64,000 nucleotides of DNA from Steromphala cineraria (lineage: Eukaryota > Mollusca > Gastropoda > Trochida > Trochidae), in contig OU744724.1 in NCBI GenBank assembly GCA_916613615.1, forward strand, positions 18,710,171 to 18,774,170. The letters run 5' to 3'. The stretch's first letter is position 1, and every line of letters begins with the position of its first letter. A program made the position numbers and the translations under genes. The notes beneath the pieces are model-generated. The model was not told the DNA's origin. It saw only the letters and a list, made by a program, of their open reading frames with translations, and ran no database searches. Positions 454 to 59,180 of the stretch are shown one piece after another.

Positions 454-3400
454 CTGCAATACAAATCCTTGCGTTATTAAACGAGTAGGTGTTGCATACC
501 TTTGTAACAACCAAAAGATCGCATTGATTATGTTCTTTCTCTTATGATGAGAAGTAGGTTGATTAAGTTGTATATTTCTATTAACAATAATGGCTCGAGA
601 TGTCTGACATTGATATCATCGTTACGGTGTTACGTTCTTTACTTTCCAGTATAAATATCAATCATTTATCGTAATTGAATTGTTTCTGTCTTCAAACTTT
701 ATTTTGACAATTTCTTCACTTCGAAAACAAATAAGCAAAAACAGTAAAAAAAAAATATCATATATATTCGATAATTATTTTGGAAGCCCGTACTTCAAAT
801 TGTTCCAATTCATAGTTTTTAATTCATATCATTCTCTTTTCATAAATAAAACTATATGATTAAAATGTCATGATATGGACCGCCACTAATGGTTGAAATA
901 TTGCCCAAGCGGCGTTAGGCACTAACTCACTTAATATGGAAAGAAAGCTTTCCTTTGATATAAGGACCACTAACTTACATACACTCAGTTTAAAGATATC
1001 ATTAACTTATGTTTGTATGTAGAACAAACACATACTCTGGTCACATCGCTTGCCCGTCCAGCCCGGCTGGCAGTCACACGAGTAGTCGCCAACCAGGTTG
1101 TGGCAGGAGAAGGCGTTGACACAGGGACTGCCGCTACACTCGTCCGCGTCTAGTTGACAGTGGGGGCCCTGCCACCCTCCCGGGCACGTGCAGTCGTAGC
1201 TGTTGTCTTGGTCGATACACGTGCCGTTGTGCAGGCAGGGGTTGGAGGCGCACTCGTTCACGTCTTGGGAGGGAGAGGGGAATGAATTGTGGTTCAACAA
1301 TTTTGAAGCATATGAATTTTGTTTTCAACAGTTGGGAGTATTTACATTATAACATCACCTGTTCAACAGTTCTGAAGCATGTGTACACTCCAGTCATTAT
1401 AATTTCAATTATTCTAAAGTATTTTCGTCATCTGCACTCAACAAAATAACTGAAAGACTTCATGATAATCGTATGTTGAATAATTGGTGTTCCTTAATCT
1501 GTTTTTCGAGTATACTTTGGTCAAGAGAAAAGCGCGAAAATATACTAATGAATCTAATGAAGGTCCGGAAATGAATTAATATTGGCATGCGAGAACACGC
1601 ATCTCCAACAATACTGGACAAAATAAGTATAGGACGTTTCCAATTGAGATATTTTAACAGAATTCAATGTACAATTATGATTATCAGCGGAAAAGAAGAG
1701 AATTTGGATTTCCAGTAAACAGACTACTTACTGACGTCACAGACATGCCCGGTCCAGCCGGGGGGACAGTTACACACGAAGCCTGTCTGTATCTCCACAC
1801 ACTTCCCGCCGTTCTCACAGGGCGCCGACGTGCACGCATGGTCCGCTAAGGGTTAATATTGAGTTGTTAGATCTCAGAGGCAGTTTAGAAGTGGATAGAT
1901 ATAAAAGGCAGCTTTGAAGTGAAAAGACATAATGAGGAGAGAGATATGGATAACAACTAATTCATCATGGTTTGCATACGATGAATAAAGAAGTTGTTTT
2001 CTATATATTGTTCTCATCGTCATAGTGTAAGCAGGAGGACTCTAAGTCAATGTCCATTTATACATTTGTATTGTTTATATATACTTTAAATGTATCACTG
2101 AATAGGCGTTGTTCTTCTTTAAGAGTTTCAAGAAAGTTAAATATTGTTAATTTCCTAAATATGCATAATTATACATAAACGCATAAACCCCCGATTAACG
2201 TCGATCTAATGGTAAACATTCCATATATCATGTGTAATTTTATATCTGTTTTAATGTTACAATATACAAATGTATTTGTGGAAAAAGTATACTTTTTGTA
2301 AAAGCAGAAAACACTCTTTTCACGCTAACCATATCCAATTAAGGTCCAACTGTTCAAAATTACACCGTTGTCGTTACTTTGTTTAATACATTTCTACTTA
2401 TTCATACCATTTGCAGATACTACGATATCTGTGTTAAAATTAATAACTAATGAGAATGTAATTCTTTCAATATACTAGACGTTGTTTTTCACCTTTCAAT
2501 GTGGTCTACCAACCACGTTTATCACTGTCGTGTACCCGATAAGGAGGGGACTTTTCAAAATGGTGGACGTGACAGGTCAACAGAGGTAGGTGTCTGCTTT
2601 CAGTGCTCCCTTCTCCTAATCGGCGAGGTTTAGATGGTCACCTTTAACTGTGGTAATCAGGAATAGAATTTCGAATACATTCCTTACGAGTTTTGGTTCA
2701 CAAACTGCAAGAAATTTGCGTATTTAAGATGTCAAGTTGATGTTTATCTCACTTTCATTTTCGAAGCGGAGAGGAGACTTTTAAATGCCTTTTTTCATGC
2801 CCTTAACGACCTTGATTATCATACATATTGTCGCGCATATCAGTGTTTGGTTATAATAAAGATTTCTGTGCAACTTGAACTGATTTGGTTCAGAAACTAC
2901 GAAGTTATTGACAAAATAACAAATCAACTTGGCAGCGGAGTGGACTCGCCGAATAATCGGCGGAGCGGACCCAAGAGGTCGGGTAGGGAGAGGACATTTT
3001 TGGATATGGAGGGGACACATTTGGATATGGAGTGGACATCACTTTCAAATTGTACTGTAGTTGAGACAATACCCATGGTAATACACAAACTCCTAGTTTC
3101 ATAAGAACTATCATCAACCTTTTCATCTACAAATGATTGAAATAGAGGTTTCTCTTTTCTTTTGCAGAACTTACCTGGAGAACGTTTCCGTTGCTGCCGT
3201 TGTCACACATAATAGATCACTGCATTCGTTACCACCCATTACAAACATTGAAATTGGAAATATAATGTTTAGAGCCGTCAAGTGAAAAATGGACACTTAA
3301 CAAAAAAGACTATCAAATAGTTCCTTATGATATATTAGGCATCGACGAGATTTTCAATGTTGATGATAAGTCACTAGTACTTGTTTGTGCATCACCAAGT

Positions 3401-6400
3401 CCGAAGATGCATTAAAGGAATCTGTGCTCAATCTCTCATTAGACCCGGAATGCCCTTTTGCTAAAACAATTTAAATGTTCAACGTCGCCATCAGCAAAAG
3501 GGCTTTCTGCGGCTTATGAGAGATTGAGAACAGATTCCTTTATTGCATCTATATAATATGTGTTTCGGCTGTTTTGCATTGATTTGACAACGGCAGCAAC
3601 GGAAACGTTCTCTAGGTAAGTTCTGCAAAAGAAAAGAGAAACCTCTATTTCAATCATTGGTTTATGAAAAGGTTGATGATAATGCTTATGAAACTAGATT
3701 ACGTCTTCTGTGGGGTTCTTTTGGCTAACTTTACAAAGGAGTTTGTTTATAACCATGGGTATTGTCTCAACTACAGTACAATTTGAAAGTGATGTCCACT
3801 CCATATCCAAATGTGTCCCCTCCATATCCAAAAATGTCCTCTCCCTACCCGACCTCTTGGGTCCGCTCCGCCGATTATTCGGCGAGTCCACTCCGCTGCC
3901 ATGTTGATTTGTTATTTTGTCAATAACTTCGTAGTTTCTGAACCAAATCAGTTCAAGTTGCACAGAAATCTTTATTATAACCAAACACTGATATGCGCGA
4001 CAATATGTATGATATTCAAGGTCGTTAGGGCATGAAAAAGGCATTTAAAAGTCTCCTCTCCGCTTCGAAAATGAAAGTGAGATAAACATCAACTTGACAT
4101 CTAAAATACGCAAATTTCTTGCAGTTTGTGAACCAAAACTCGTAAGGAATGTATTCGAAATTCTATTCCTGATTACCACAGTTAAAGGTGACCATCTAAA
4201 CCTCGTCGATTAGGAGAAGGGAGCACTGAAAGCAGACACCTACCTCTGTTGACCTGTCACGTCCACCATTTTGAAAAGTCCCCTCCTTATCGGGTACACG
4301 ACAGTGTTTATTATATTGTGAGACGTCTTGACCAAGTACAGAAACTGTAGTTTACGGACAAATCATTAATGAAACCCCTTGTAAAGTTTTATGCATCTCG
4401 CCTTTGGTTCCGAATAAATCTACCCCTGGATTGATATGATATATAAGTCATGATGGAATGTACTTGTTACATGAGAATGCTATATCTACACAACTCTCAC
4501 CTATCTCACAGTTCTGTCCGGAGAAGCCCTGGTTACACGTGCACTCGTACATGTCGGGAGCGATGTTACGACACAGGCCGCCATTGTGACACGGGTGGTG
4601 CCGCCCACAGAAGTTGAGATCTGTCACACAAGAAGATACAATGCTTTATTTCAACATTAATATCAATGAGATATGAAAGAACTCAGTGCTGTCTGTAGGC
4701 TCATTGGTATGTTGGTCGAGGCTCAGAACGAGAATCAAAACTAGAGACTATACGAAAATCAGTGATGAATTATAAAACTCAATTTAGAAAATGTATCAGT
4801 TCAACGCTAACATCCGATTTGATTACATCATTAAAACCCTTTTGGTTATCAAACTGTCCCAGAGGTCAAACTCATTGTTCAAACTTTCTAATGCTCAGTT
4901 TTCCGCTTGTTGATTTAATGCTATTTGATCGCGTAAGAAACAACATGGCGAACACTTAGCAGCTTAATCTTGGCTGCAAGTCACATAAAATATTGACAGA
5001 GTTTGAATTAAGTTGTAAATATTTCAATATATCCATCACTCGCAGAAGGGCTATGCTAGTGCTAGAACCGTTGTTTACACGTAGAATCAATGGCGCGTGC
5101 AAACACCAATGTCTCGGCATGCGAGAAACGGTAAAAAAAACACTGTCGTAATTACTTTAGATTAACTGGATACAACGAAAGCTTGGGGTTTTTTTTCAAA
5201 AGATTTTCTTTTCAAACTCAGAAGACTTGAGGGTCCCATTTGATAGTTTCAGGAAAACAAAAAATTATATCATATTGATCACCAATAGATCAAGGTCATA
5301 TAATTTTGAATCTAAAACAACATAAACATTTAAAGAGACAACTGATTTAAAAAAATAAACTAAAAAAAACTTTTAATGGATATCATGCTTACGTTGTCGA
5401 CGATACGTTAAATCACAGTTGTATTAATTAAAGAACAAAATTTACAAAATAATTTACAACCAAGATAGCCATATTAAACAAATGCTAACAACCGTTTGAC
5501 TATAACAGCCTCAAAATTATTATTTTAAAGTCGACGCTGTAATACATGGAGAAATCACTGTTATGCAAAGTGCACATACACGAAATATATAATTTTTGGT
5601 TTACATTCCGGTGTCTACCTTTATCGCAGAGGATTCCACCCCAGTTGAGATGACAAACACAGCGCCAGGGAGACCCGTTACAGGAACCGTGTTTACACCC
5701 GGGGTAGGGGATACACTGGTCACACAGCTCGCCCTGCCACCCGTAGTGGCACCTGCAGTCAGAAGGCCAATAGTAGTTGGAATGAAAGATTTTAAATTTG
5801 ACCTCAGCAGAGCAAACTTAACAGTGATGGACCCAATGGTGGGGAGGGGAGGGATCAAGGACACCGTGGGGTTTGGAATGGGGGGATGGGGGCACGGGGG
5901 CACGGGACGGGAACACCATGGGGTTGGATCTTGGGGGTGAATGTCGTCCCTAACGCAAACCCATAAACCTGAGATAATTTGTTTAAAGCCCCAAAATCTA
6001 CAGATAAATATTTACCTCTTTTAAATGAGTGAACTCACCCCCTTTTCAAATTCAAATTCTGGATTCGTCACTAAACACTCATGGAATATGTTCTAATCGA
6101 CTATCGGCCATTGTAAGCCCATGCATCCATTGTCCACTGTCTGTGAAGCTCCACTGTTTGTGATGGTCCAATTTTAACACTACGTCATATTTATGTATTC
6201 TAAAATCATTTTAAATTTCACGTTATAAGTAATATCTTTTCAATGAACGCTTCTATCCCGCAAGACATCAACACGGACCAGTATCCTAAAAGCCACATAT
6301 GCCTTGCGAGGGAAAGTTGGAAAGTTAGTGAGTGCGGACAAAAATTTGGCAACATTAAACTCGTCTTGACTTCAGCATACCATACTGTCCCTTCAATAAA

Positions 6401-9400
6401 TAGAATTTGATGCGTCCTCGTACAGCAGGGTATTAGACGATACTTCAGTGTCGATAGAGAGGCATGGAAGGAAGATTCATACATTAAAGATGGCTAAATA
6501 TAAGTATGGGAATCGGGAGACAAACATGCATCATGTTAGATGGACTACTGATTGATAAGAGGAAAGTTATAAGTTTAAAAAACCAACTTTAATCCTTGAC
6601 GGTTCAGATTATAATTATCCTCATGAAATCTATAAATCATGTTAATCCACGTCAAAGAAAATAAAAATTCTAAAAAACTGTAATTTTAGAATTTAAACAT
6701 CGAGAATACATTTTTTGCCTCAAACAAAAGACCAGTAAACTGATAGTAGCCTCGTTCTGAGTTCTAGAAACCGGATATCCTGTGTTTTCGAGTCCCTGGG
6801 GACCAAATTCTGCCGTAGCAGTTCCTTTAGTCACAGTTTAAATCAACCGAATCATTGAAAAACAGGATAACAAGAGACGCTTACGAACATTTGAAAACAA
6901 ATAGATTTTACAAACTGAAGAAACGCGTTCCAAGGGGATGATAAGTCACCGACTCAGGGATAAAAGCTACGAAGCAAATGCCATTTTAGAAAGTTCACCT
7001 CATTACATTCAAACGTTGTTCTCTTCAACAAATCTTCAAAACAAGGCTTTTTATCAAAAACACATCTCAAACATAATTCAAAATTATTTTCAAGGTTCGT
7101 TATTTTTTCCTTTGATAGTGAAGGCAAAAGAGTGAAAATGTTGATATAGGCATAATTGGACATCACATGTTCCACATATCATGATTAATCTATGAACTTA
7201 CCGTGTAAGCACGATCGCGATCATTACTAGGTATGACCATTCCTTTGTATTTACCCAAAATATACACACGCCTTGTTTGGTGAGTGTGAGCGCAAGAGAT
7301 GACCCGCCCTGAACATTAAATGGACATTGTGTACGAGTAATTTGAGTAATCAGATTCATATTAGTAGGTCAGTTATAATGACAATGACCGTCGGTCTCAC
7401 AGGAAGGGCAGTACTGACCCGTGGGATTCGGGTGATCGGACTGAATTGCCGCTTGTTCATATAACCAAGGAAACACAACCATGACGATGAATCCAGAGAA
7501 CATCTGATGGAAGTTTCTAATAATGACTTTTAATGTTTTAATTGTATCCTAATCTCATCAAAATCAGATTTAATCATTCGTACTCTGCTATGATTCTGAT
7601 TTATGTACTGCCAAACAAGGGGCCGCGTCAGCCGGGCGACCATCGCATGAAAGCCAATCTGGTGAAATGGAGAATGTTCATTGGAATGGATATTTTGAAT
7701 CTTGGTAACTTTTCAACATAAGCTGAATAAAAACTGTTTTTGTGAACATATATACCTTTCTGGGGAATTTGGGGGTTACATCGGTTCGGGACTGATGACA
7801 TTGACAATACGCAATGCAACTTAAAATGACCATAGCCATTTCAATGACAGAGAGATGTGAAGTATATTGTTGGTTGAAATAACATATACAGAACATACCA
7901 TGCGCCTGTGAGATAACCTCTGCTAAGATCAAAGATCTATCCGTGCCATTCAAACTCACACGTCAAAAGCGTCAATTTTGACACTTTCCAACCAAGGTAG
8001 CAAACATACATAGAGCAGGAGCGTCAAACCTATTCACACCCTTATGTATTGAAAAGCATTACCCATGACATTTTTTTTGTAACATTTGTAATGAGATGGA
8101 ATAAGAAATTCAATGGTCTCTTGATTCAAGTTTTGTATCCTTCATTTAAATCTATCTTTTGTTAATATGACACGTACGGCCGTCTTACAAGTTAAAAGAT
8201 CTGGGTTTGTAATGTTTCAACTGTTGGAAAAGCACTGGTTAGATTTAAAGACACTTTCGACTTCAATTATATCATAAAGTAAGTTTTGAAATAAGCACCC
8301 AAGCAGAACAATCTCTTAAATATAAATATATTGGCCTACAGGTGCCGTGAAAATAAACCATTGACAAGATAAAAGTATGACTCCATTTAAACCCGGATAC
8401 AGATTTATGTCTCGACCCGGATACGGAAGTACGTACCTGCACTCTCCCGGTCTCTCGCAGGACCCATGGACGGCGTGACATCCGGGTATGCAGTTGGCTA
8501 TAGAGAAGAAAAGTTCTAATCTGTTTAAAAAGTAATATCAAAGATTACAATTATAAATTGACAAAATAACATACATGTATTTCAGAAATTCGTCCCTGTC
8601 AAAGTCAAGCGTCATTAAAAGCGCTGTTCTATCTCCAATGTTGAGTGCCTAGCAAGGAAACAACCACTCCCGTTATATATTTTCTTCTGACAGTAAGTAA
8701 TCTTCAATCGAACATATGATGAACAGGCACAACAACACATAACAGGCCTCGATTGATGTCTAGGCCTACACAGATCGCCGTGTCCGTCATTAGGTCAAAC
8801 TAACGTTCAAATTGTAAATCTTGACGTACCAAATAAACGTCATATTGACTTGATATTTCAGACCTTTACATTGCACATATGGGAATATTCGGAAAATGAG
8901 AATGTGGTTTCCTAAAAATTGTTGGGCGGATTATCCCTTAACACAACTAACGGGAAAGAATACAAATATAGCCTTTTAACCACTTTTATTAAAACGTTTT
9001 GCTGTAAATCTCCAAAAACGTCAAAAACGAATGCCAAAAACATAAAAATGATAATCTTATCCTAAACACAAATTATTGATATTCCTTCACAATTATTTCT
9101 TTTGTTCATCTGAAATCCAAATTTGTGAGTGTTGAAATTATGTGACACAACATTAACTTTACATGATCTGTGATTTATAGAATAATATGATTTAGCAATA
9201 TTGGCTCTAGTAAAAAATCACTCGGCTATTAGCAAGAAAGCCCTAGGGAGTTTTGCAACCTGCTGTTTGACAATCGGTGTCGTTTATAATTAATGACCCT
9301 AACAGATATGTCCCCGGAGAAGTTATACTGGATTTTGAGCAACCGCTTTTTCTCGTAATTTCAGCAGCACATTGCTCGAGTGAGCATTAAGAAATCTGAA

Positions 9401-12400
9401 TAAGTTCAAAGAGCATTTCGGAGGAAAGAGGGTTTAAACGAATTAGAGACCTTAACTGTTATCAAGGCTCATTATCTTACAAATCAAATTTCAAATAATT
9501 GCGATTGTTCTTTGATGGCTCTTCAAGAAAATTAGCAACTAAATCAAACTCAAATTAAACAGAAACCATTAGAAGTTCAGACCAAAACCGCGTTTGTTTG
9601 TTGTGATGATCCCAAATGTAAATTCTGATTAATGACACAAAAACAGGAAGGTTTTCAAATTAATGTTTTTATAATTTCGCATAGAATGTATGGTATACAA
9701 AATCTTATAAGTGAATTTTGAATTATATATAAGGCCCTGTGAGCTACAATACGAAGGAAATACCTTTGAAGTGCCACATAGAGTATTGTCAAAATTTGTC
9801 TCTCTTAAACGTACTATAGCATGTCTTGGAAATCATACACATATTGAAATGCACACGTTTAATACCATATGCAAACTACATCTAACAATTAATTACTTTC
9901 CTAAATATCCAACGTCGAAAACTGACGTCACATATAACCAAAACTCCATGCGGCCAGTTTAGTGTAAACATTTTCAAACACAAATTTGAGTTAAAAAATT
10001 GCTTCGCGTAGCGTTAGTTATGATATTCGTGATATACGAACACATTTTGATGAAAATAATTGTTTGCACTTGATTATAGTTGTTTCCCCGGGACACCCCT
10101 GCCCCATAAGAATTCGTGCTACAGAGCCTTTAAATAATTCATTGATATATCATAAACCAGTCACACACTCAACCTATTTCATTTCTTTTTCGTGAGATCA
10201 CATTCGTAACAATCCGTTCTACTGTGTGTCTACAGGGGCGGATACTAGATTTTTGTTTGGGTAGTGATGTTATAAGAACATTTCTCAAAAGATCGCTTTT
10301 AAAAATGTATGTGACGACTGGACTTAAATAACCCTCAATTTTAAATGGATTGGGAACTCCATTGGATGGGATATGCACCCGCACAACCTAAACTTCTTGG
10401 TCAGCTAATGTAACACGGTGCCTTTAGTATAAAAGAACATAGTTTACTTGTTGTACATATGTCCAATTTCTTATTAAATCCAAACCTTTTCCCTCAAAAC
10501 AAATCGTGCATCAGTGCCTTTTAGCAATTACCGTATTTCCTCGAATACAACCCCGGGGTTCTATTTCGTTCAGTACCCCCTTACCCCCCGGGTTCTATTC
10601 GAGGCCCGGGTTATAATGGAGGCCGGGTTGTATTTCTTCAGGTCTGAATTGACGTTTAAAATCTTCTAGGAATGGCGTTTTCATGGAAAATTATTGATCT
10701 AGTTCTACATATCTCGTGACATTTCTGTTGATATTCATTCTTTTATCAAAATACGTATCAATCCCTGCAATATACGGTTTCCGTGAAGTATATACTAGTA
10801 TCGACATATTATACCAGTATTTATGTTAGACCCGGGTTCTATTCGAGACCCGGGTTGTATTAATGTCAGCACCCCCTTACCCCCCGGGTTATATTCGAGG
10901 CCCGGGTTGTAATGGAGGCACGGGTTGTATTAGAGGAAATACGGTAACTGTTTCTCCTATAATGTACCTGTTTCACACTCCTGCCCCATCCAGCCCTCGA
11001 GACAGACCTTGTCCCCATTAGAGTCACACTGGTAGTGGCCAAACCGGTCGTTCCGTGGTCTACAGAACTTGGTACACGTGGTGTTGTAGTAGTGCTGGTC
11101 GCACACCACCCTGATACGGTATATGAGCCGCGCCGTGGCTCCGTTGTGGGTCAGGGTGTGCCACGCTTGACCCGGCAGGATGATACCTTTGTGGGAGGCG
11201 CGCTCTATCAAACTCGTCGTGCCCCCTGGAATGAATAATGAAAATAACTATATAGAAACACTTAGGAATAAATGTATTTCATGACGGAGGCGCGCTCTAT
11301 CAAACTCGTCGTGCCCCCTGGAATGAATAATGAAAATAACTATATAGAAACACTTAGGAATAAATGTATTTCATGACGGAGACGCGCTCTATCAAACTCG
11401 TCGTGCCCCCTGGAATGAATAATGAAAATAACTATATAGAAACACTTAGGAATAAATGTATTTCATGACGGAGACGCGCTCTATCAAACTCGTCGTGCCC
11501 CCTGGAATGAATAATGAAAATAACTATATAGAAAAACTTAGGAATAAATGTATTTCATGACGGAGACGCGCTCTATCAAACTCGTCGTGCCCCCTGGAAT
11601 GAATAATGAAAATAACTATATAGAAACACTTAGGAATAAATGTATTTCATGACGGAGACGCGCTCTATCAAACTCGTCGTGCCCCCTGGAATGAATAATG
11701 AAAATAACTATATAGAAACACTTAGGAATAAATGTATTTCATGACGGAGGCGCGCTCTATCAAACTCGTCGTGCCCCCTGGAATGAATAATGAAAATAAC
11801 TATATAGAAAAACTTAGGAACAAATGTATTTCATGACGGAGACGCGCTCTATCAAACTCGTCGTGCCCCCTGGAATGAATAATGAAAATAACTATATAGA
11901 AACACTTAGGAATAAATGTATTTCATGACGGAGGCGCGCTCTATCAAACTCGTCGTGCCCCCTGGAATGAATAATGAAAATAACTATATAGAAAAACTTA
12001 GGAATAAATGTATTTCATGACGGAGACGCGCTCTATCAAACTCGTCGTGCCCCCTGGAATGAATAATGAAAATAACTATATAGAAAAACTTAGGAATAAA
12101 TGTATTTCATGACGGAGACGCGCTCTATCAAACTCGTCGTGCCCCCTGGAATGAATAATGAAAATAACTATATAGAAAAACTTAGGAATAAATGTATTTC
12201 ATGACGGAGACGCGCTCTATCAAACTCGTCGTGCCCCCTGGAATGAATAATGAAAATAACTATATAGAAAAACTTAGGAATAAATGTATTTCATGACGGA
12301 GACGCGCTCTATCAAACTCGTCGTGCCCCCTGGAATGAATAATGAAAATAACTATATAGAAACACTTAGGAATAAATGTATTTCATGACGGAGACGCGCT

Positions 12401-15400
12401 CTATCAAACTCGTCGTGCCCCCTGGAATGAATAATGAAAATAGCTATATAGAAAAACTTAGGAATAAATGTATTTCATGACGGAGACGCGCTCTATCAAA
12501 CTCGTCGTGCCCCCTGGAATGAATAATGAAAATAACTATATAGAAACACTTAGGAATAAATGTATTTCATGACGGAGACGCGCTCTATCAAACTCGTCGT
12601 GCCCCCTGGAATGAATAATGAAAATAACTATATAGAAACACTTAGGAATAAATGTATTTCATGACGGAGACGCGCTCTATCAAACTCGTCGTGCCCCCTG
12701 GAATGAATAATGAAAATAACTATATAGAAAAACTTAGGAATAAATGTATTTCATGACCGAGACGCGCTCTATCAAACTCGTCGTGCCCCCTGGAATGAAT
12801 AATGAAAATAACTATATAGAAACACTTAGGAATAAATGTATTTCATGACGGAGACGCGCTCTATCAAACTCGTCGTGCCCCCTGAAATGAATAATGAAAA
12901 TAACTATATAGAAAAACTTAGGAATAAATGTATTTCATGACGGAGACGCGCTCTATCAAACTCGTCGTGCCCCCTGGAATGAATAATGAAAATAACTATA
13001 TAGAAAAACTTAGGAATAAATGTATTTCATGACGGAGACGCGCTCTATCAAACTCGTCGTGCCCCCTGGAATGAATAATGAAAATAACTATATAGAAAAA
13101 CTTAGGAATAAATGTATTTCATGACGGAGACGCGCTCTATCAAACTCGTCGTGCCCCCTGGAATGAATAATGAAAATAACTATATAGAAAAACTTAGGAA
13201 TAAATGTATTTCATGACGGAGACGCGCTCTATCAAACTCGTCGTGCCCCCTGGAATGAATAATGAAAATAACTATATAGAAAAACTTAGGAATAAATGTA
13301 TTTCATGACGGAGACGCGCTCTATCAAACTCGTCGTGCCCCCTGGAATGAATAATGAAAATAACTATATAGAAAAACTTAGGAATAAATGTATTTCATGA
13401 CGGAGACGCGCTCTATCAAACTCGTCGTGCCCCCTGGAATGAATAATGAAAATAACTATATAGAAAAACTTAGGAATAAATGTATTTCATGACGGAGACG
13501 CGCTCTATCAAACTCGTCGTGCCCCCTGGAATGAATAATGAAAATAACTATATAGAAACACTTAGGAATAAATGTATTTCATGACGGAGACGCGCTCTAT
13601 CAAACTCGTCGTGCCCCCTGGAATGAATAATGAAAATAACTATATAGAAAAACTTAGGAATAAATGTATTTCATGACGGAGGCGCGCTCTATCAAACTCG
13701 TCGTGCCCCCTGGAATGAATAATGAAAATAACTATATAGAAACACTTAGGAATAAATGTATTTCATGACGGAGACGCGCTCTATCAAACTCGTCGTGCCC
13801 CCTGGAATGAATAATGAAAATAACTATATAGAAAAACTTAGGAATAAATGTATTTCATGACGGAGACGCGCTCTATCAAACTCGTCGTGCCCCCTGGAAT
13901 GAATAATGAAAATAACTATATAGAAACACTTAGGAATAAATGTATTTCATGACGGAGACGCGCTCTATCAAACTCGTCGTGCCCCCTGGAATGAATAATG
14001 AAAATAACTATATAGAAACACTTAGGAATAAATGTATTTCATGACGGAGACGCGCTCTATCAAACTCGTCGTGCCCCCTGGAATGAATAATGAAAATAAC
14101 TATATAGAAAAACTTAGGAATAAATGTATTTCATGACGGAGACGCGCTCTATCAAACTCGTCGTGCCCCCTGGAATGAATAATGAAAATAACTATATAGA
14201 AAAACTTAGGAATAAATGTATTTCATGACGGAGACGCGCTCTATCAAACTCGTCGTGCCCCCTGGAATGAATAATGAAAATAACTATATAGAAACACTTA
14301 GGAATAAATGTATTTCATGACGGAGACGCGCTCTATCAAACTCGTCGTGCCCCCTGGAATGAATAATGAAAATAACTATATAGAAACACTTAGGAATAAA
14401 TGTATTTCATGACGGAGACGCGCTCTATCAAACTCGTCGTGCCCCCTGGAATGAATAATGAAAATAACTATATAGAAAAACTTAGGAATAAATGTATTTC
14501 ATGACGGAGACGCGCTCTATCAAACTCGTCGTGCCCCCTGGAATGAATAATGAAAATAACTATATAGAAAAACTTAGGAATAAATGTATTTCATGACGGA
14601 GACGCGCTCTATCAAACTCGTCGTGCCCCCTGGAATGAATAATGAAAATAACTATATAGAAACACTTAGGAATAAATGTATTTCATGACGGAGACGCGCT
14701 CTATCAAACTCGTCGTGCCCCCTGGAATGAATAATGAAAATAACTATATAGAAAAACTTAGGAATAAATGTATTTCATGACGGAGACGCGCTCTATCAAA
14801 CTCGTCGTGCCCCCTGGAATGAATAATGAAAATAACTATATAGAAAAACTTAGGAATAAATGTATTTCATGACGGAGACGCGCTCTATCAAACTCGTCGT
14901 GCCCCCTGGAATGAATAATGAAAATAACTATATAGAAAAACTTAGGAATAAATGTATTTCATGACGGAGACGCGCTCTATCAAACTCGTCGTGCCCCCTG
15001 GAATGAATAATGAAAATAACTATATAGAAAAACTTAGGAATAAATGTATTTCATGACGGAGACGCGCTCTATCAAACTCGTCGTGCCCCCTGGAATGAAT
15101 AATGAAAATAACTATATAGAAACACTTAGGAATAAATGTATTTCATGACGGAGACGCGCTCTATCAAACTCGTCGTGCCCCCTGGAATGAATAATGAAAA
15201 TAACTATATAGAAAAACTTAGGAATAAATGTATTTCATGACGGAGACGCGCTCTATCAAACTCGTCGTGCCCCCTGGAATGAATAATGAAAATAACTATA
15301 TAGAAACACTTAGGAATAAATGTATTTCATGACGGAGGCGCGCTCTATCAAACTCGTCGTGCCCCCTGGAATGAATAATGAAAATAACTATATAGAAAAA

Positions 15401-18400
15401 CTTAGGAATAAATGTATTTCATGACGGAGACGCGCTCTATCAAACTCGTCGTGCCCCCTGGAATGAATAATGAAAATAACTATATAGAAAAACTTAGGAA
15501 TAAATGTATTTCATGACGGAGACGCGCTCTATCAAACTCGTCGTGCCCCCTGGAATGAATAATGAAAATAACTATATAGAAACACTTAGGAATAAATGTA
15601 TTTCATGACGGAGGCGCGCTCTATCAAACTCGTCGTGCCCCCTGAAATGAATGATGAAAATAACTATATAGAAAAACTTAGGAATAAATGTATTTCATGA
15701 CGGAGACGCGCTCTATAAAACTCGTTTTGCCGCCTGAAATGAATGATGAAAATAACTATATAGAAAAACTTAGGAATAAATGTATTTCATGACGGAGACG
15801 CGCTCTATAAAACTCGTTTTGCCGCCTGAAATGAATGATGAAAATAACTATATAGAAAAACTTAGGAATAAATGTATTTCATGACGGAGACGCGCTCTAT
15901 AAAACTCGTTTTGCCGCCTGAAATGAATGATGAAAATAACTATATAGAAAAACTTAGGAATAAATGTATTTCATGACGGAGACGCGCTCTATAAAACTCG
16001 TTTTGCCGCCAGAAATGAATGATGAAAATAATTATATAGAAATCAGGAATAAATGTATTTCATGAAAGACGCGAGATGTATGTAATGAAGGCCTAGTGGT
16101 TGAGTGGTTAAGCTGGTGGTGAGCTCCGTGCTAGCAGTTGGTATCTGTCTCTAGTGGTATGATTTGTTATAAAACCAGGAACTTGATCCGATGAAAGTAC
16201 AGATGTATAGTTTGTAGGTTTGCAAAAAGAATGATTAAAATAAAACAAAGCTACATGAAAAACATATTTAGGAAAGGTAATAAGTGTTGGAAGCAGGTTG
16301 GGTGGTAATCAAAGCATTTTTAAATCAGTATTTCCATAACATCAGGGTATATTACTGCATGCTAAAAAACCCGAACACGTTTGTGGCTAAGTGTTGCAGT
16401 GAATCCTATTTTCAGAATCATGCGTTGTGTTTTTAAAATAATTTAAAAACAAATCTTGAAACAGCCATAGAAAAGGCTTTCAACTCGAGGGAAATAACTG
16501 CCAAAACCCTTTATGAATACGTATCAGATAAATATCTCAGATGCATCAATATGGCATCAAGAATTTAATCACATATATAGGAGAGGTTAGAGAGGAACCA
16601 AAGCGCAAATCCATTTCAAATTGTAATTGAGAACGTAGCTAGAGGCAACCTCAGTTACAACCCGTCCAGATATAATTAGATCATAGATTTCTTGTCATAG
16701 AATACAATTATATGATTCCAGTAATTACTCTATCTTGATTCCTAAATTGACTAATTATGGCAATCCCAATCTTGCTGCAGAATTAAAATCAACGCCTTCG
16801 GCTTTTTTGTGTGTTTTGGCGAAACGTTGATGACGTTTCCGGGAACTTGATAACTATTTCATCTGCATATCAGTATTGGCCAATAAACTTTTTAGCCCAA
16901 TTTTTTTTAGAATAGTTGAGGGTATGTGGTGTGTTTAGGCGAATTGTCGGTTACTTAAAAAAAATTGAATAATTACGTTATTTAACGGAGACCCCTGACA
17001 GTCATAAATGAACGTGCAGAATTTAATCAACGCTTCGGACTTTTAGTGATTTTTCATTGTTCAGGTTGATGACATTTTTTTGAAAGAATTTACACACAGA
17101 AGAAAAAAACATTCTTAAAATATTAATATCAATTTGTCTTTGGTGACATGATATTAAGTCGATATCTTTATTCTATTGATTTCCTAAATAGAGACGAAGA
17201 GCCTGTTTTATCAATTTTACACAGCTGTATTGATTTTACAAGCAAAACAAACAGAATAATGTTATCGCCTTGCGGCAGACCCAATAAACGATCTCCGCAT
17301 AAATATCTCTCATTCAAGTTGTTTTGTCTCCATGTTTACTTTGATGCTAATGACATTTCCTAAATTTTACAATTAAAGCCGTTAAAGTGTTTTACTCAAG
17401 TTCTTAATATCGATGATATTTTATTATGTTGATAGTTAATAATGCATACTCTCAAACCGTCCGACGTAAAAACATTGTTCAAATCAATTGCCTTAATGCA
17501 CGAAAAAACTGCAGCTGTAATACTGTCTCTAAAATACAATGCACTGCATATCACTAAGTAAAAATATGCTAAATACGATTAAGCTTCCATACATTTCCAC
17601 AAAAGACAAATGTTTCATAAACCAAATTTGTAAAAGATTATAAACCGAAAAGACAAACAGTTTGAGAAAGAGACAGTTTGTCTTGGAAGGAATGTGGCAT
17701 CGATTGACAATGATGCTTCTACAAGATGGAACTAATTCTGGCACTTGAATGTAATGGCTTGTAAGTAAACAAAGACGAGAGGTAAGTGGGCCAATTCTGG
17801 AACTCTGGCACCAATGGAACTTCATCTTTACCAATGTCAGTGCCACCGTGATCCCAGCGCGCATTAATCTTTGATTTGTAAGATCTGGCACCAGCTTCGT
17901 GTTCTTCCGCTTGGTCACCTAGTTCCCGCTGCAGAAATAGTTTCTAGAATTGTTTACGGAACGAATCTTCCTTTCATCAATTTTCCTCAGTGTTTTGCCA
18001 TGCTGGTGGCAGATTGGGGATGAGCCTCTGTGTAAACACTCACGTCAATTGAGAGGTATTGTGTTCCCACGACATACTAGGCACGTGTTCAAGGTCTGTA
18101 CTCTAAGAATGACTACTGAAATAAGAACAGATGATGCGATCTTAGTACTGATGGTGTGGCGTGATGCCTACTTCTTATATTCCAAGGTCACGTAAAAAAG
18201 GATTCCTGCCAAAAGCTACAATCGTTTCTTAAACGTCAAGAGTTGACCTGCATTTATTTTGATGAATTCACTAAAAGTACAAAAAATATCATCCAAAACC
18301 TACTACAAGTTAACATTCATTTTGCTCAGTTTAAATACAAATGAATCCTTCCACAAATTACAACAATTTGTAAAACCTGAAAATAATGACCAATGGCCAA

Positions 18401-20755
18401 ATAAAAATAATGAACTGCCAAGAGGTCACAATGTTTATTCACTCTTGTTCAAAACTGACTAGTGTTCCTCAAAATTTCGCTTAAGGAAACAAAATGCATC
18501 TAGTTAATCAATTATTTGCTGAAGGACCCGAGGGTTATTCACGAGAAATAATGATAAAACTTGCGGTTACGTCTTCCAGTACCTTATTTGATTCATCTTG
18601 AACTCAGATTGACCAGCAAATGTTCCAATCTGATCATTATAGAAATTCATTCACAATGTTCCATTGAGATAGAGCGTGAAGATTGTTTAACGCAATTAGA
18701 ATACCTCTGAGGGGATTTATCGAATCTTTCAATGGAGGTACCATCAATATGAGTTCTCTGTCTATGTGTCAGCCCCGACTCCCGCCTCTAATATTGAAAT
18801 TATATACATAGCAACATTTAATCTTATTCTGTCTAATGCCGTCATTATCAATTAATGTGTTCTATATCCAACAATGAGATGTGACAACGACTGGTATTAA
18901 TGGATTTTCTTGGATTTCATGACATCGGTAATAGATACTTTCACACAGGTTAAACCAAGTTTTTACTCTCGTGCTCCGATGTATATTCGAAATTCGTTCG
19001 TTATATATAATATTTTGTGAATAAAGTTCACTGTAATTCCCACTGCATTTAGAACTCCGACCCCTTGTTTGACGAAATGATATGTAAATGAGAAACGTCA
19101 CGTTAAACACGAAGGTCCTTCAAATAGATCTGAGGTTAAATTTATCAGTTAACAAAGTGAAACATTTGTAAAGAAACACTCTTCATTTTATAATGATAAT
19201 GAAAATAGTCCATTGTCTTCCGAAAATAGAATATGTAAAATTGATTGCACCATGTATTGGAAATATAACAAATACAAGACCAAAACATGTCAAAAAGCTT
19301 CTCCAACGTTCCAACATCCGGGCCAGCGAAGGTCCACAATCTGGCCATAGACCGCCAACTGTTACCAATACGAAACAAGAGTTGACGAAGCGTCATCAAC
19401 GGACGTCACATCGCTATATCGACCCAGAACAACTTTGTCCTTAATCATGAATTGGAGGAGGACTCTTGCTGCGATGAATTATTTGAATTTCTTCACAAGT
19501 TTGATCGCCCCGAGTTTGACAGTGTCTCTGAAAAGTCCTCCCAGCGTGATGGCCCCGCCTCGTACAGCCCTTGATGCCTCGAGAGCCTGTTTTGTAGGAA
19601 GAGTGGCATTGTCCCCCTCAAATTAGCTAATACAGCATCGATTAAACTTCTTTTACAAGATTCAGATAGAAACGACTCCTGGTTAACGAGAATCACATTT
19701 TGACGAACGCTGTTACACTGTATGATGTTTGCGACGAGCATTATTTAAACCAGGGACATTATATAACATATATGTATATAGAGTTCTGTTTAAACTCACA
19801 TTCTGTTTCTATTACTATTGGCATTTTAGAAGGCACTGTACTGTTTTTTGATGCTTTGGTTTGATTTAAATGCGGATTCAATGTTAGTTTAAGCAAAACA
19901 TATTTCTTCATATCATATCACATATCATTTACCATAGTCGTAGAGTGTAGTGTTAATGTTGAAAACTTCATAGACAGTTCATATTATTATACGCAAACTC
20001 TATTTCTTCGGAGAGCAAAAGATCCTTCTAGTCAACCCGTTAATCCATAGTGCCAAAAAATGATGTGTCATATCAACATCAAACAAACGCTATATGTGCA
20101 TAATTCAGTGTGACCATTTTTAAAGGGGCAGTAGCACGTTTTTTTAAATTACTTTTTTCAATTTTTCACTGATAATTGTCCGTAAATGTTGAATGTACTA
20201 TTTTGATTTCATTACACAAACCAATCATCCACAGTAAAAGATTTACATAAAGTCCACCGACGGCCATATTTTGTGAACACCTTTACCTCATATTGGTTAA
20301 GAAAAAGGAATCTCATGGCTAAACTTAACATTAAATATTTGATTACAACTGCTTCATTTAGTTGAAACACGTTGTTTTCAATTGGAACCATTTATTTTCA
20401 TTTTCCTGACATGAGTGACGTCACCTTATATTCCCCCTTAAATGTGCTGCTGCCCCTTTAAATCGTTGTTTAAGAGGAATTGCTTAACATAACTTAACCG
20501 AATACATAATAAAGAAATGTCCTGATTGCTTATTATTGTTGACAGAGCATTGTACGGTTTTTTATGGGAAAATCCAGGTAGCAAGCAATAAAACTCAATA
20601 TTCAATTGGTAACATTGTATTCAATTTTGTCTAAATCCCTCTATTTCCTTTAGAAAATGTGTTTCACTATATTCAATTACAAAAAGAAAATATATATTCA
20701 TAATTGGCTTACCCTCATCATCATCCCAAGCTTCCACTATTATTGTATAGGCCCT
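404..20755 (-). CDS. Jagged: Jagged/Serrate-like Notch ligand, partial gene (8 exons joined)
   Basis: This is a type I membrane ligand of the Notch receptor family, acting at the cell surface in contact-dependent signalling. Spliced order on the minus strand is 20755-20713, 11225-10968, 8497-8437, 5752-5619, 4620-4501, 1845-1732, 1263-1036 and 453-404, giving 1008 nt or 336 codons without a stop. Domain order is end of MNNL/C2, DSL, EGF1 to EGF6, half of EGF7. The short EGF2 with [12 protein letters not shown] and the following DLNFCG repeat are Jagged/Serrate hallmarks that separate it from Delta. Every junction is GT-AG and phase-consistent. Exon lengths resemble vertebrate JAG1 exons 3 to 11 as I recall them (52, 255, 61, 131, 120, 114, 114, 114 and 47 nt). 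The 5' exons (signal peptide, most of MNNL) and the 3' exons are absent. The ligand class is secure; one-to-one orthology with JAG1 or JAG2 is not testable here, since invertebrates usually have one copy. Confidence 0.95.
454..1035. other. Intron between exons 9 and 10
   Basis: This 582-bp intron is AT-rich and unremarkable apart from its donor (GTATGT) and acceptor (TATTGCAG). Confidence 0.7.
1036..1263 (-). CDS. Jagged: Jagged exon 9: EGF5 and EGF6 in one exon
   Basis: This 228-nt exon (2 x 114) encodes two calcium-binding-type EGF repeats. EGF5 reads [30 protein letters not shown]6 reads [31 protein letters not shown]5 carries consensus sites for O-glucose (CASNPC) and O-fucose (CLHNGTC), and a C-x-D/N-x4-Y-x-C-x-C hydroxylation consensus. 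EGF6 has O-fucose (CVNAFSC) and hydroxylation consensus but not O-glucose. The acceptor is TCCCAAG and the donor GTATGT. In human JAG1 these repeats are, as I recall, two separate 114-nt exons. Confidence 0.96.
1264..1731. other. Intron between exons 8 and 9
   Basis: This is a 468-bp AT-rich intron. The motif caaca(a/g)tt(t/c)tgaagcatatg recurs near 1296, and in related form near 1362, as a short imperfect repeat. No coding potential is visible. Confidence 0.65.
1732..1845 (-). CDS. Jagged: Jagged exon 8: EGF4
   Basis: This is a symmetric 114-nt phase 1-1 exon for one EGF repeat. It begins [15 protein letters not shown] and ends [15 protein letters not shown] fits the consensus for O-glucosylation (C1-x-S-x-P/A-C2), while Lys before the third cysteine means no O-fucose site. 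The acceptor is AACCCTTAG and the donor GTAAGT. The exon runs into the previous and next repeats without phase conflict. Confidence 0.95.
2523..4306. mobile_element. Fold-back DNA element with about 0.7-kb inverted arms and TTTAT target duplication
   Basis: The left arm 2523-3205 is the near-exact reverse complement of the right arm 3585-4306. The termini are CACTGTCGTGTACCCG and its complement. Direct TTTAT copies at 2518-2522 and 4307-4311 look like a 5-bp target-site duplication. The loop 3206-3584 contains a second inverted pair (about 3408-3440 with 3516-3546). The right arm carries about 40 bp (around 3696-3738) missing from the left. Similar open frames in both arms are shadows of the repeat; no transposase is present, so it is non-autonomous. 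CACTG termini occur in several superfamilies (CACTA/EnSpm, Transib-like, Chapaev-like), so it is left unassigned. It lies in the intron between the EGF3 and EGF4 exons. Confidence 0.88.
4501..4620 (-). CDS. Jagged: Jagged exon 7: EGF3
   Basis: This is a single 120-nt exon for one complete EGF repeat, starting [15 protein letters not shown] and ending FSGQNCEI. Vertebrate Jagged EGF3 starts DLNYCG and includes GPDKY; here APDMYECTC aligns at that point. All six cysteines are present. Phase is 1 in and 1 out, so the repeat is a symmetric module. The acceptor is GTGACAG and the donor GTGAGA. Confidence 0.96.
4621..5618. other. Intron between exons 6 and 7
   Basis: This is a 998-bp AT-rich intron with short A and T runs. 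No coding region or clear repeat was seen. Confidence 0.65.
5619..5752 (-). CDS. Jagged: Jagged exon 6: end of EGF1 and the short EGF2
   Basis: The exon encodes [12 protein letters not shown], completing EGF1, then the unusually short EGF2 with [16 protein letters not shown] and NWGGILC. This compact, cysteine-spaced EGF2 is diagnostic of Jagged/Serrate and Delta ligands and lies in the receptor-binding N-terminal region. It is 134 nt long (131 recalled for human JAG1), the extra codon falling in the NGSPW loop. Phase is 2 in and 1 out. The acceptor is GACTGCAG and the donor GTAGAC. A G-rich tract lies about 80 bp beyond its acceptor side. Confidence 0.95.
5833..5938 (+). other. G-rich tract beside the exon 6 acceptor
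   Basis: The plus strand holds many runs of three to six G within about 100 bp, starting about 80 bp from the exon 6 acceptor. It could form a G-quadruplex on the template strand, and the minus-strand transcript would be C-rich in the last 200 nt of the intron. A role in splicing or polymerase pausing is inference only. Confidence 0.55.
5939..8436. other. Intron between exons 5 and 6, remainder
   Basis: No exon, tRNA or clear repeat was seen in this AT-rich stretch. Open frames on both strands lack protein-like composition. Confidence 0.55.
8437..8497 (-). CDS. Jagged: Jagged exon 5: first part of EGF1
   Basis: This 61-nt exon, the same length as I recall for human JAG1 exon 5, starts in phase 1 and ends in phase 2. 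It encodes the first four cysteines of EGF1 (NCIPGC, HGSC, GEC). The acceptor is CTCTATAG and the donor GTACGT. The split arginine codon (AG|G) joins the next exon to give the CRCHYGW motif typical of Jagged EGF1. Confidence 0.93.
8498..10530. other. Intron between exons 4 and 5, distal part
   Basis: This is AT-rich intron. No coding evidence or repeated structure was seen before the element that starts at 10531. Confidence 0.55.
10531..10944. mobile_element. Short TIR element (MITE) with TA target site, 20 nt from the DSL exon donor
   Basis: The ends are inverted copies of CCGTATTTCCTCGAATACAA (right end with one mismatch), flanked by TA at 10529-10530 and 10945-10946. Inside are two direct copies of a block of about 52 bp (10571-10622 and 10867-10919) rich in CCCCGGGTT motifs. 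It has no coding capacity. TIRs of this CCGTATTTCCTC kind are familiar from animal MITEs, but I do not assign a superfamily. It lies just inside the intron downstream of the DSL exon, ending 20 nt from the donor GT. Confidence 0.85.
10968..11225 (-). CDS. Jagged: Jagged exon 4: MNNL-DSL linker and complete DSL domain
   Basis: This 258-nt exon (phase 1 in, phase 1 out) encodes a linker with [14 protein letters not shown] and the full DSL domain, the main Notch-binding module. The six DSL cysteines are spaced C-x8-C-x3-C-x11-C-x7-C-x8-C. The receptor-facing loop reads [12 protein letters not shown]. The Arg, Arg, Asp and Phe equivalent to human R201, R203, D205 and F207 (numbering from memory) are kept, but the residue before the last Phe is Arg instead of Phe. 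The domain ends EGWMGQEC as in vertebrate Jagged. The acceptor is ATTCATTCCAG and the donor GTACAT. The first 32 nt of this exon are also the exonic part of the 92-bp tandem repeat that follows at higher coordinates. Confidence 0.97.
11191..16063 (-). repeat. 92-bp minisatellite, about 53 copies, derived from the DSL exon acceptor boundary
   Basis: Copies start every 92 bp from 11191 without any indel up to 15975; the 53rd copy (15975-16063) is 3 bp short. Copy 0 contains the real exon 4 start. Each unit is 32 nt matching exon 4 (11194-11225) plus 60 nt of adjoining intron, so on the minus strand every copy has a U-rich stretch, ATTCATTCCAG and exon-like sequence. Two sites vary between copies: exon-type G or array-type A at unit base 9, and C or A in GAAA(C/A)ACTT. 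The last four copies, farthest from the exon, form a diverged subtype (15699-16063), and copy 48 (15607) is intermediate. The array makes up about half of the 9.5-kb intron 3. Confidence 0.97.
16064..17714. other. Intron 3 distal to the minisatellite, with a small direct duplication
   Basis: The stretch is mostly unstructured. A block at about 16777-16843 (gcagaatt, then atcaacgc, ttcgg, gttgatgac) recurs imperfectly at 17016-17074. A tRNA-like start near 16085 (tagtggttgagtggttaag) has no B box. No exon was seen. Confidence 0.45.
17715..17934 (-). pseudogene. Protein-like open segment of unknown origin
   Basis: One minus-strand frame is open for about 75 codons and has protein-like composition, including [29 protein letters not shown] and [15 protein letters not shown]. 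It has an in-frame stop just upstream, no start codon in the frame and a stop at the end. An overlapping frame is also open. I do not recognise the family. It could be a fragment of a decayed gene or retrocopy inside intron 3, or chance. Confidence 0.3.
19448..19741 (-). pseudogene. Possible short gene relic with a frameshift in a G run
   Basis: From an ATG at 19741 the frame reads [14 protein letters not shown] and [12 protein letters not shown]. Shifting frame at the GGGGG run near 19616 continues it as [20 protein letters not shown] and [20 protein letters not shown], ending at a stop near 19458. The two halves look like one continuous protein broken by a one-base change. I do not recognise it. 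Further protein-like sequence follows at lower coordinates (19280-19400). It lies within intron 3 on the same strand as Jagged. A decayed retrocopy or a repeat-derived fragment are both possible. Confidence 0.35.
20124..20457. mobile_element. TTAA-flanked MITE, copy 1
   Basis: The ends are AGGGGCAGTAGCACG and its imperfect complement, flanked by TTAA at 20120-20123 and 20458-20461. No coding capacity. TTAA targets suggest mobilisation by a piggyBac-like transposase. Its right part is the reverse complement of the left part of copy 2 (21293-21488). It lies in intron 3, about 255 bp from exon 3. Confidence 0.88.
20713..20755 (-). CDS. Jagged: Jagged exon 3: C-terminal strand of the MNNL/C2 domain (43-nt micro-exon)
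   Basis: The exon encodes [14 protein letters not shown] plus one base. It matches the vertebrate JAG1 stretch ending the MNNL domain (RSYTLLVEAWD, from memory). The acceptor is a pyrimidine tract ending TTTTCAG and the donor is GTAAGC. It starts in phase 0 and ends in phase 1, and the split glycine codon is completed by the DSL exon. The human counterpart is 52 nt, so this one is about three codons shorter, in the variable loop after the tryptophan. Being very small, it probably depends on strong splice sites or enhancers. Two inverted MITEs flank it. Confidence 0.9.
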
Positions 20756-21292
20756 CTGAAAAGGAAAGAAAGGTCACATTTTAATAAGTATATCAAATGA
20801 TATATAATTAATTTTCAACAAGAAACGATAAATAAGGGCAAATTGGAAAGCATCCAAATGGATTGCTTTGAAAGGATATATGAAACGACAAGTTTTTATA
20901 AAGACAGGCATTTTTTCTGCAAATTCAAGTAAATAAGTGAATATTTTTTTCTCAAAATTGTGTTCAAATGGATATCCTGAAGAAACAATATCTCCTTGTC
21001 GCCATACGTTTTGCAAGATAGCAAATGGTCATCAACTCTATGACACTTATTCTTATGGTATCAAGTGCATGGCTTGGAATCTAATGACGCTGACGTCAAT
21101 TCAAAATATCGATTTTTATTTCGTAAAGGGGGTTATTTTGAGTGTTTAAACAAACTGTATTGATTGCAGGAACTATTAAATTATTGGAGAAAGCAGTTCC
21201 GTTTGACTGAATTTTTTTGCATAATCAATGATACAAGTATCGTACTTTATTTAATTATTTTATAATTCACAGTTGGATATGTTACATCTTAA

Positions 21293-21488
21293 AGGGGCAG
21301 TAGCACGTTTTTAGGGGGAATATAAGGTAATGTCAGGAAAATGAAAATAAATGGTTCTAATCAAAAGACAATGTATCTTAACTAAATAAGATTTTTGACA
21401 CTATCAAAGTGATACATTTAGCATTAGGGTCCAATTATCAGTGAAAAATTTAAAATATAAAATTGTCAAAAAACCTGCTACTGCCCCT
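21293..21488. mobile_element. TTAA-flanked MITE, copy 2, inverted relative to copy 1
   Basis: The ends are AGGGGCAGTAGCACG and CTACTGCCCCT, flanked by TTAA at 21289-21292 and 21489-21492. The first 110 bp (ggggaatataaggt, gtcaggaaaatgaaaata) match the complement of the right half of copy 1. It lies on the other side of exon 3, about 535 bp upstream in transcript terms. Confidence 0.88.
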
Positions 21489-22587
21489 TTAAGTTTATAC
21501 ATGCACATATAAGCGTTATTTCATTATGTTTTATACAGCTTTAAAAGCATTGCATCATCAATTTCGGACATACCGTAGTTTGCCTCAACTGACAACTGTT
21601 AAAAACTGTAACTTTTTTTACACTTTTTTGGCATTATTTCATCATCTAGAGGACGCCTACCACGTATAAAACAAGAACCTAATATCATTGGGAATCTGAT
21701 TGACATTTTTGCATTAAAGTCAGTCAATTTTGTTTAATTTTCTCAAATGACTAAATAATAATTTCCTAATTTATTTCATTCTGTGTTCATTACTTTGGCA
21801 TTTGAACCTTTTAAGGCAGGAGTGGAAGAGATTAAAACATCAAGCTATCTTCTGAAATTACAGGTATCTAGCAAACGTGAACCATCAAATATCATGATTT
21901 CCTAATGTTTTAAGTAAAATTCCGTGTCCGGCATTAACACGCCCGAAAAACACTATTGTGTTTTTTAATAGTTAACATGGCAAAGAGCCCCCACAATGGA
22001 CGAGTTTTGGATTTCAGAATATTGTCCGTTTGTTAAGCGGCGCTAAGCGAGCTTGAATGTTATCACTGAACCGAAGTGGGGAAGTTTTATTGACAACTCT
22101 TTGATTCTTGACGGGTCGGAATCTGCAATTTTGTAGTTAATTCCGGGACGGGAAAGCAATATAGAATTGCGCATACTAAACTAGTCATTACGGAAATACA
22201 ATTCTATTACACCGAGCGTGCCAATTCACAAAGGGCGTAAAAATACTATTAATTTGTTAATTTTGAATCGAAGTTACTTTTTCGGATTGTAAATGGGGGA
22301 TACAATTTCAACACTTGTGTTATGATTCAATTCTGCTGTTGGCTGCACGTGTTGGTTTTGAAAGAGCTTGAAAACAAGTCTACAAGCATATTTGCCATGT
22401 TTGACACCATTCAATGAAAATATTAATATTAAGTCAACAGATCTCACATATGCCCCCAAAATAACTGAATTTTAATGATAATCGAATAACAAACGCGTTG
22501 GCCGAAATTCAGCTCCAAGAATGGTATTTTCAAATAGTATAAATACAAATTGTTTATCTGGTTTCTACCTGCTTAAGTGAAGTTCCT

Positions 22588-58619: not shown

Positions 58620-58785
58620 TAGTAGTAGTAGTAGTAGTAGTTGTAGTAAAAGTAGTAGTAGTAGAAGTAGAAGTAGAATTATTAGTAGCAGCAGCAGTAG
58701 TAGTAGAAGTAGTAAGAGTAGTTGTAATATTAGAAGCAGCAGTAGTGGTAGTGGCTGTAGTAGTAGTAGTAATAGCTGTAGCAGC

Positions 58786-58822
<37 letters not shown>

Positions 58823-59119
58823 ATAGCTCTAGCAGCAGCAGTAGTAGTAATAGTAATAGATGTAGTAGTAGTAGTAGTATTAGTAGAAGTAGTAGATGTA
58901 GTAGTAGTAGTAGAAGTAATAGAAGTAGAAGTAGAAGTAGTAGTAGTAGAAGTAGTAGTAGTTGCAGTAGTAGTAGTAGTAGTATAAGTTGCAGTAGAAG
59001 CTGTAGCATCAGTAGTAGTAGTAGTAGTAGAAGAAGATGCAGAAGCAGCTGTAGCAGGAGCAATAGTAGTTGTAGTAGTAGAAGTAGTAGTAGTAGAAGT
59101 AGAATTAACACTAAACTCT

Positions 59120-59180
<61 letters not shown>

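Follow-up and report, generated by a model that had tools for sequence, protein, structure and literature searches.

A segment of 92 bp spanning the junction of intron 3 and exon 4 is repeated 53 times in tandem in a likely gastropod Jagged gene of Steromphala cineraria. We consider it probable that splicing skips the 51 acceptors lying upstream of the true one, because a usable donor appears to follow the last copy only. The array resembles the mirages described in amphioxus. The window, by which we mean the whole stretch of DNA that was analysed, is 64,000 nucleotides long, and the gene runs on its minus strand.

The host gene and the anatomy of the array

The product of exon 4 matches the Pfam domains DSL (6.2e-22) and, exactly at the cut-off, MNNL (9e-05). 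In the PDB it is closest to jagged-1 (1.8e-32) and Serrate. The closest protein found is a jagged-1-like protein of Haliotis asinina, with 85% identity over query residues 1-170, and the next match is from Lottia at 77% identity. The sequence-only reading that preceded this work had taken the exon for the DSL exon of a Notch ligand; Pfam, the PDB and the homologues agree and point to Jagged/Serrate, so that the array is likely hosted by the gastropod gene for this ligand. When Haliotis Jagged is mapped on the window and its flanks, 21 non-overlapping stretches of it align collinearly on the minus strand, between window-frame 67797 and -10547. The N-terminal exon (67797-67411) lies beyond the window, and the C-terminal exon is found at -10125 to -10547. 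Thus, the gene looks intact.

In tblastn, exon 3 resembles Jagged proteins weakly (E 0.027-0.26), and it falls below the cut-off when Haliotis Jagged is mapped on the window and flanks. Its splice sites and phase support the assignment: the donor reads GAGG/GTAAGC, with the last exon base at 20713. The intron preceding it is about 46.7 kb long. Exon numbers are those of the sequence-only reading; as residues 1-117 of Haliotis Jagged form a single aligned stretch, the true numbers may be one lower.

In the 64-kb window, TRF reports one outstanding array, a minus-strand tandem repeat of a 92-bp unit in 53.0 copies (11194-16065, 98% matches). Cutting it in phase along the minus strand, from 16066 to 11194, gives 53 units, 52 of which are exactly 92 nt long. 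Each full unit consists of 60 nt of intron ending in CAG followed by 32 nt of the DSL exon. Both the anatomy and a count of more than 50 copies had been proposed from the letters, and both are borne out. The two commonest unit sequences (n=23 and n=16) differ at intron position -34. Mean pairwise identity is 98.3% for the 52 full units (2-53), with 11 variable positions, and 98.9% for units 5-53, with seven. Units 2-4 show six differences from the commonest unit, and unit 53, which contains the true junction, has the same sequence as units 26 and 52. CAG is present at the acceptor position in 52 of the 53 units including the true site, and in 51 of the 52 upstream units. Every copy had been said to keep CAG, with about 52 near-identical acceptors ahead of the true one. 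The number of upstream units is correct, but unit 1 (16066-15978) reads CTG, leaving 51 with CAG, and units 2-4 are diverged.

Features of the Jagged gene and of the array, in window coordinates
Feature	Position	Strand	Basis
Exon 3, end of MNNL, donor GTAAGC	20713..20755	-	weak tblastn, consensus splice sites, matching phase
Whole array, 53 units of 92 bp	11194..16066	-	TRF, phased units
Unit 1: degenerate 89-nt copy at the outer end, with CTG instead of CAG	15978..16066	-	phased units
Units 2-4: mutually identical, diverged type, CAG present	15702..15977	-	phased units
Unit 5: mosaic of a units 2-4 type intron portion and a core-type exon portion, the latter with C at +28	15610..15701	-	
Units 6-52: homogeneous core, decoy acceptors	11286..15609	-	phased units
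Unit 53: true intron 3/exon 4 junction	11194..11285	-	phased units
True acceptor CAG	11226..11228	-	
Exon 4: end of MNNL and DSL domain, 258 nt	10968..11225	-	Pfam, PDB
Exon 4 donor GTACAT (CAG/GTACAT)	10962..10967	-	
Exon 5, first EGF part	8437..8497	-	sequence, tblastn
Exons 6-9 region, EGF repeats	1031..5752	-	

Splice signals and the choice of acceptor

Acceptors and donors were scored with approximate matrices. By this measure the true acceptor (5.7) shares second place among the eight acceptors scored in the gene, and a further 46 AG sites of the array reach or exceed its score. Outside the array, the 4.6 kb of intron 3 that are left contain no such site, with a best score of 5.1; the part of intron 2 inside the window, 43 kb, contains eight. 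Between -20 and +3, 47 of the 52 full units, the true one counted, are identical to the true acceptor. Donor scores set the last copy apart. With the equally approximate donor matrix, the six GT sites of a G-type unit score from -10.7 to -3.0 and the one GT site that differs in a T-type unit scores -7.4, whereas the seven real donors of the gene score from 0.2 to 5.6 and the donor of the DSL exon 2.0. These scores predict that a good donor is absent inside the unit. Thus, a good donor at normal exon distance appears to follow the last copy alone, as had been supposed earlier.

Read in the phase of exon 3, all 51 decoys with CAG run for 18 codons and then reach a stop, the TAA predicted by the sequence-only reading, and unit 53 reads on through exon 4. 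Two other arrangements were considered and rejected. A Dscam-like cluster of mutually exclusive exons does not fit the best GT of the unit, which scores -3.0 against at least 0.2 for seven real donors on the approximate matrix. A recursive splice site is not formed either: in each of the 52 full units the bases after the acceptor are GG or GC, never the GT of AG/GT.

Based on the distribution of donors, we suggest that exon definition selects the last copy; this would be a sound explanation of the choice, and unit 53 is most likely the copy that is picked. Joining exon 3 to a copy k units upstream would lengthen the exon to 258+92k nt and bring in an early stop; competition would therefore come mainly from the copies closest to the true site. 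Messages spliced to decoys would probably be destroyed by nonsense-mediated decay. By analogy with amphioxus, the decoys are most likely silent in splicing.

The decoys score as strongly as the true site on the approximate matrix, and most match it exactly from -20 to +3. A certain amount of leakage would therefore come as no surprise, and it is plausible for the nearest copies. An exon beginning at unit 52 would be 350 nt long, still a normal size, and the units carry an upstream CCTAAG that resembles a branch-point motif, which also speaks for leakage. However, normal splicing is reported for amphioxus genes with such arrays (PMC3087553, PMC3902484). We regard it as unlikely that units 52, 51 and 50 act as acceptors in a minority of messages large enough to measure, which would lead to early stops and slightly less ligand with no regulatory role.

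Relation to amphioxus mirages and origin of the array

Tandem minisatellite-like repeats over an intron-exon boundary have been described in amphioxus as 'mirages' (PMC3087553, PMC3902484), a precedent that the sequence-only reading had missed. They are found in the globin genes BflGb6 and BflGb9 and in Adh3 (PMC3087553); TnC was added to these, together with similar imperfect repeats in PGBD5 (PMC3902484). Mirage clusters vary in length and their edges escape homogenisation, and the Adh3 data, with RT-PCR of the globins, suggest that regular splicing is undisturbed (PMC3087553). The BflGb6 mirage has 6 and 3 units in two haplotypes compared with 53 here, a comparison limited to BflGb6, and its unit of 150-160 bp, like the 10-72 bp of Adh3, differs from the 92 bp of the Jagged array (PMC3087553).

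As far as the cited parts of these papers describe mirages, the Jagged array shares with them the tandem, minisatellite-like duplication of an intron-exon boundary. Its repeats span the boundary, with 60 nt of intron and 32 nt of exon per unit and the real junction in unit 53; many keep the splice signal (CAG in 51 of 52 upstream units); and a homogenised core, units 5-53 at 98.9%, is bordered by a diverged edge, units 1-4. The array fits every mirage sequence feature tested and, judged by these, is of a known kind in large form. It differs in lying in a gastropod Notch-ligand gene rather than in lancelet globin, Adh3 or TnC genes, and it is known here from DNA alone. Among the mirages described in the parts of the papers drawn on here, we found no mollusc host, no Notch-ligand gene and no case with 53 units. 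Literature searches found no mollusc case of a boundary array, which is not proof of absence in print, and a search for acceptor arrays gave only satellite or minisatellite wording among the matches listed.

Amphioxus Adh was reportedly also treated by Canestro et al. in 2002. A human minisatellite with multiple donor sites was reportedly described in 1995, in a gene that we take to be 6-16/IFI6. In what is related of that study, the repeat unit likewise contains a splice signal and belongs to a gene that is transcribed, but the signals are donor sites, in contrast to the acceptor sites of the Jagged array. Human segmental duplications contain internal tandem repeats, averaging about 4 copies of 30 bp, in paralogues that arose recently in primates (PMC2812944). 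There, as potentially here, minisatellite units within a gene are able to switch on cryptic splice sites and to make exons and introns longer (PMC2812944), whereas Jagged is a developmental gene outside any such cluster.

The array may have begun when the junction was duplicated once, with unequal exchange or slippage then multiplying the copies. Recent turnover would have made the core uniform, while units 1-4 at the outer edge stayed diverged. The best reading of the array is a recent, self-homogenising minisatellite. No significant higher-order repeat pattern was found among the unit variants, the longest repeated run being six units, which is typical of shuffles; the expansions are therefore not datable by such a pattern.

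Position +28 of the exon is T (Val) in 45 of the 52 full units and C (Ala) in the other seven, namely units 5, 8, 26, 45, 47, 52 and 53. Haliotis has Ala at this place, within an otherwise identical stretch of 20 residues. The scattered occurrence of C at this Ala/Val site, which array and exon share, together with the identity of unit 53 to units 26 and 52, suggests exchange between the coding copy and the array, in which the first 32 coding bases would take part. Alternatively, the scatter of C and T could come from recurrent mutation, or from the amplification of mixed units without exchange at unit 53.

Copy number, genomic context and implications

The sequence-only reading had hinted that the kept CAGs or the length of the array mean something, which the analysis does not support. 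The chance that no variable position hits the three CAG positions is 0.79 for units 5-53 and 0.68 for units 2-53, so that retention of the acceptors is no evidence of use; as a sign of selection it was rejected. The same probabilities weigh against tunable dose control, in which the array would act as a reservoir of decoys for early splicing factors and its copy number would set the amount of Jagged message. Notch ligands are dose-sensitive, a stop is reached from every decoy with CAG, and, on the approximate matrix, the array has 46 strong acceptors besides the true one compared with none in the rest of intron 3, all of which favors the idea. However, the exon parts of the decoys have drifted from the coding state, with Val in 45 of 52 full units and Phe in units 2-4. 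Furthermore, among the 46 TRF rows listed for the 174 kb surrounding the gene, limited to periods of at least 15 or to repeats in contact with an exon, only this array touches any of the 22 exon intervals on the list; several of these intervals are known as tblastn alignments alone. Dose control by copy number is a bold reading that draws its support so far from anatomy, and we consider it very unlikely. We also see as a long shot the view that a length-variable array of 51 decoys, each an 18-codon dead end, would be a heritable dial of Jagged and would at the same time feed changes into the coding start by exchange.

The favored reading, a boundary array whose decoys are passed over, concerns a single locus. 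An exact 45-base piece of the unit has 46 matches in the 1.27-Gb assembly, all 46 inside the array, and the reversed control of this pattern has none in the same assembly; chance is therefore not at issue. Searching the assembly with a 210-base query from the array gave at least 23 matches, every one inside the array. On these two counts (46/46 exact matches and 23/23 of the at least 23 DNA matches) dispersed satellite DNA was rejected. A search for stray copies elsewhere in the window gave nothing beyond five short matches at E 0.61, and prokaryote contigs gave no match, as expected. In the assembly search, each of five Jagged exons (70-86% identity) lies at one place among the best candidates listed, and thus no second haplotype was seen. 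That the copy number is inflated or the array nonexistent through an assembly artefact is highly improbable: an amphioxus array was reported to be aberrantly assembled in a draft genome (PMC3087553), but the window sits in a 75.6-Mb contig of an assembly of 1.27 Gb in 281 contigs, and the distinct unit variants, the diverged outer edge and the mosaic unit 5 are expected of a real array. The array itself is real, and 53 is its number of units as assembled.

Other repeats were seen in and around the gene. Between Jagged exons 7 and 8 lies a long near-perfect inverted repeat that resembles a foldback element (2523-4306); its arms form three long nested pairs that are 95-99% complementary and an inner pair at 88%. 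TRF also lists a TAG microsatellite (58620-59180; 187 copies, 74% match) in the large intron before exon 3, and CCCGGGTT-type short 18-bp repeats (10587-10936) in the next intron, just past exon 4. By eye, two stretches at about 20120-20470 and 21290-21490 have inverted ends like aaaggggcag / ctgccccttt and perhaps represent a small transposon family. About 20 kb past the 3' end of the gene is a 19-bp tandem array of 367 copies (G000:C5, window-frame -37319 to -29826).

TRF on 30 loci from the EGF-like/Jagged search reported mostly 114-bp arrays in EGF-like open frames. At about 7.31-7.42 Mb of G000:C2 (L021, L023-L026, L028-L036 and others), EGF-like matches lie in long open frames built from roughly 9 to 25 tandem units of 114 bp, which in the longer arrays are 89-94% alike; these loci overlap, and some arrays are cut by the locus bounds. 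At G000:C43:44078228-44079298, EGF-like matches lie in an ORF listed as 23,344 codons (about 70 kb), with no stop in the match.

If the reading of the Jagged array as a skipped boundary repeat is true, boundary minisatellites are not peculiar to lancelets and can grow to 53 units in a developmental gene. A coding segment would sit inside a non-coding array that may convert it. The array is also a natural test of how the spliceosome chooses one acceptor from about 50 that are nearly equal, and of whether exon definition alone is enough for that choice.
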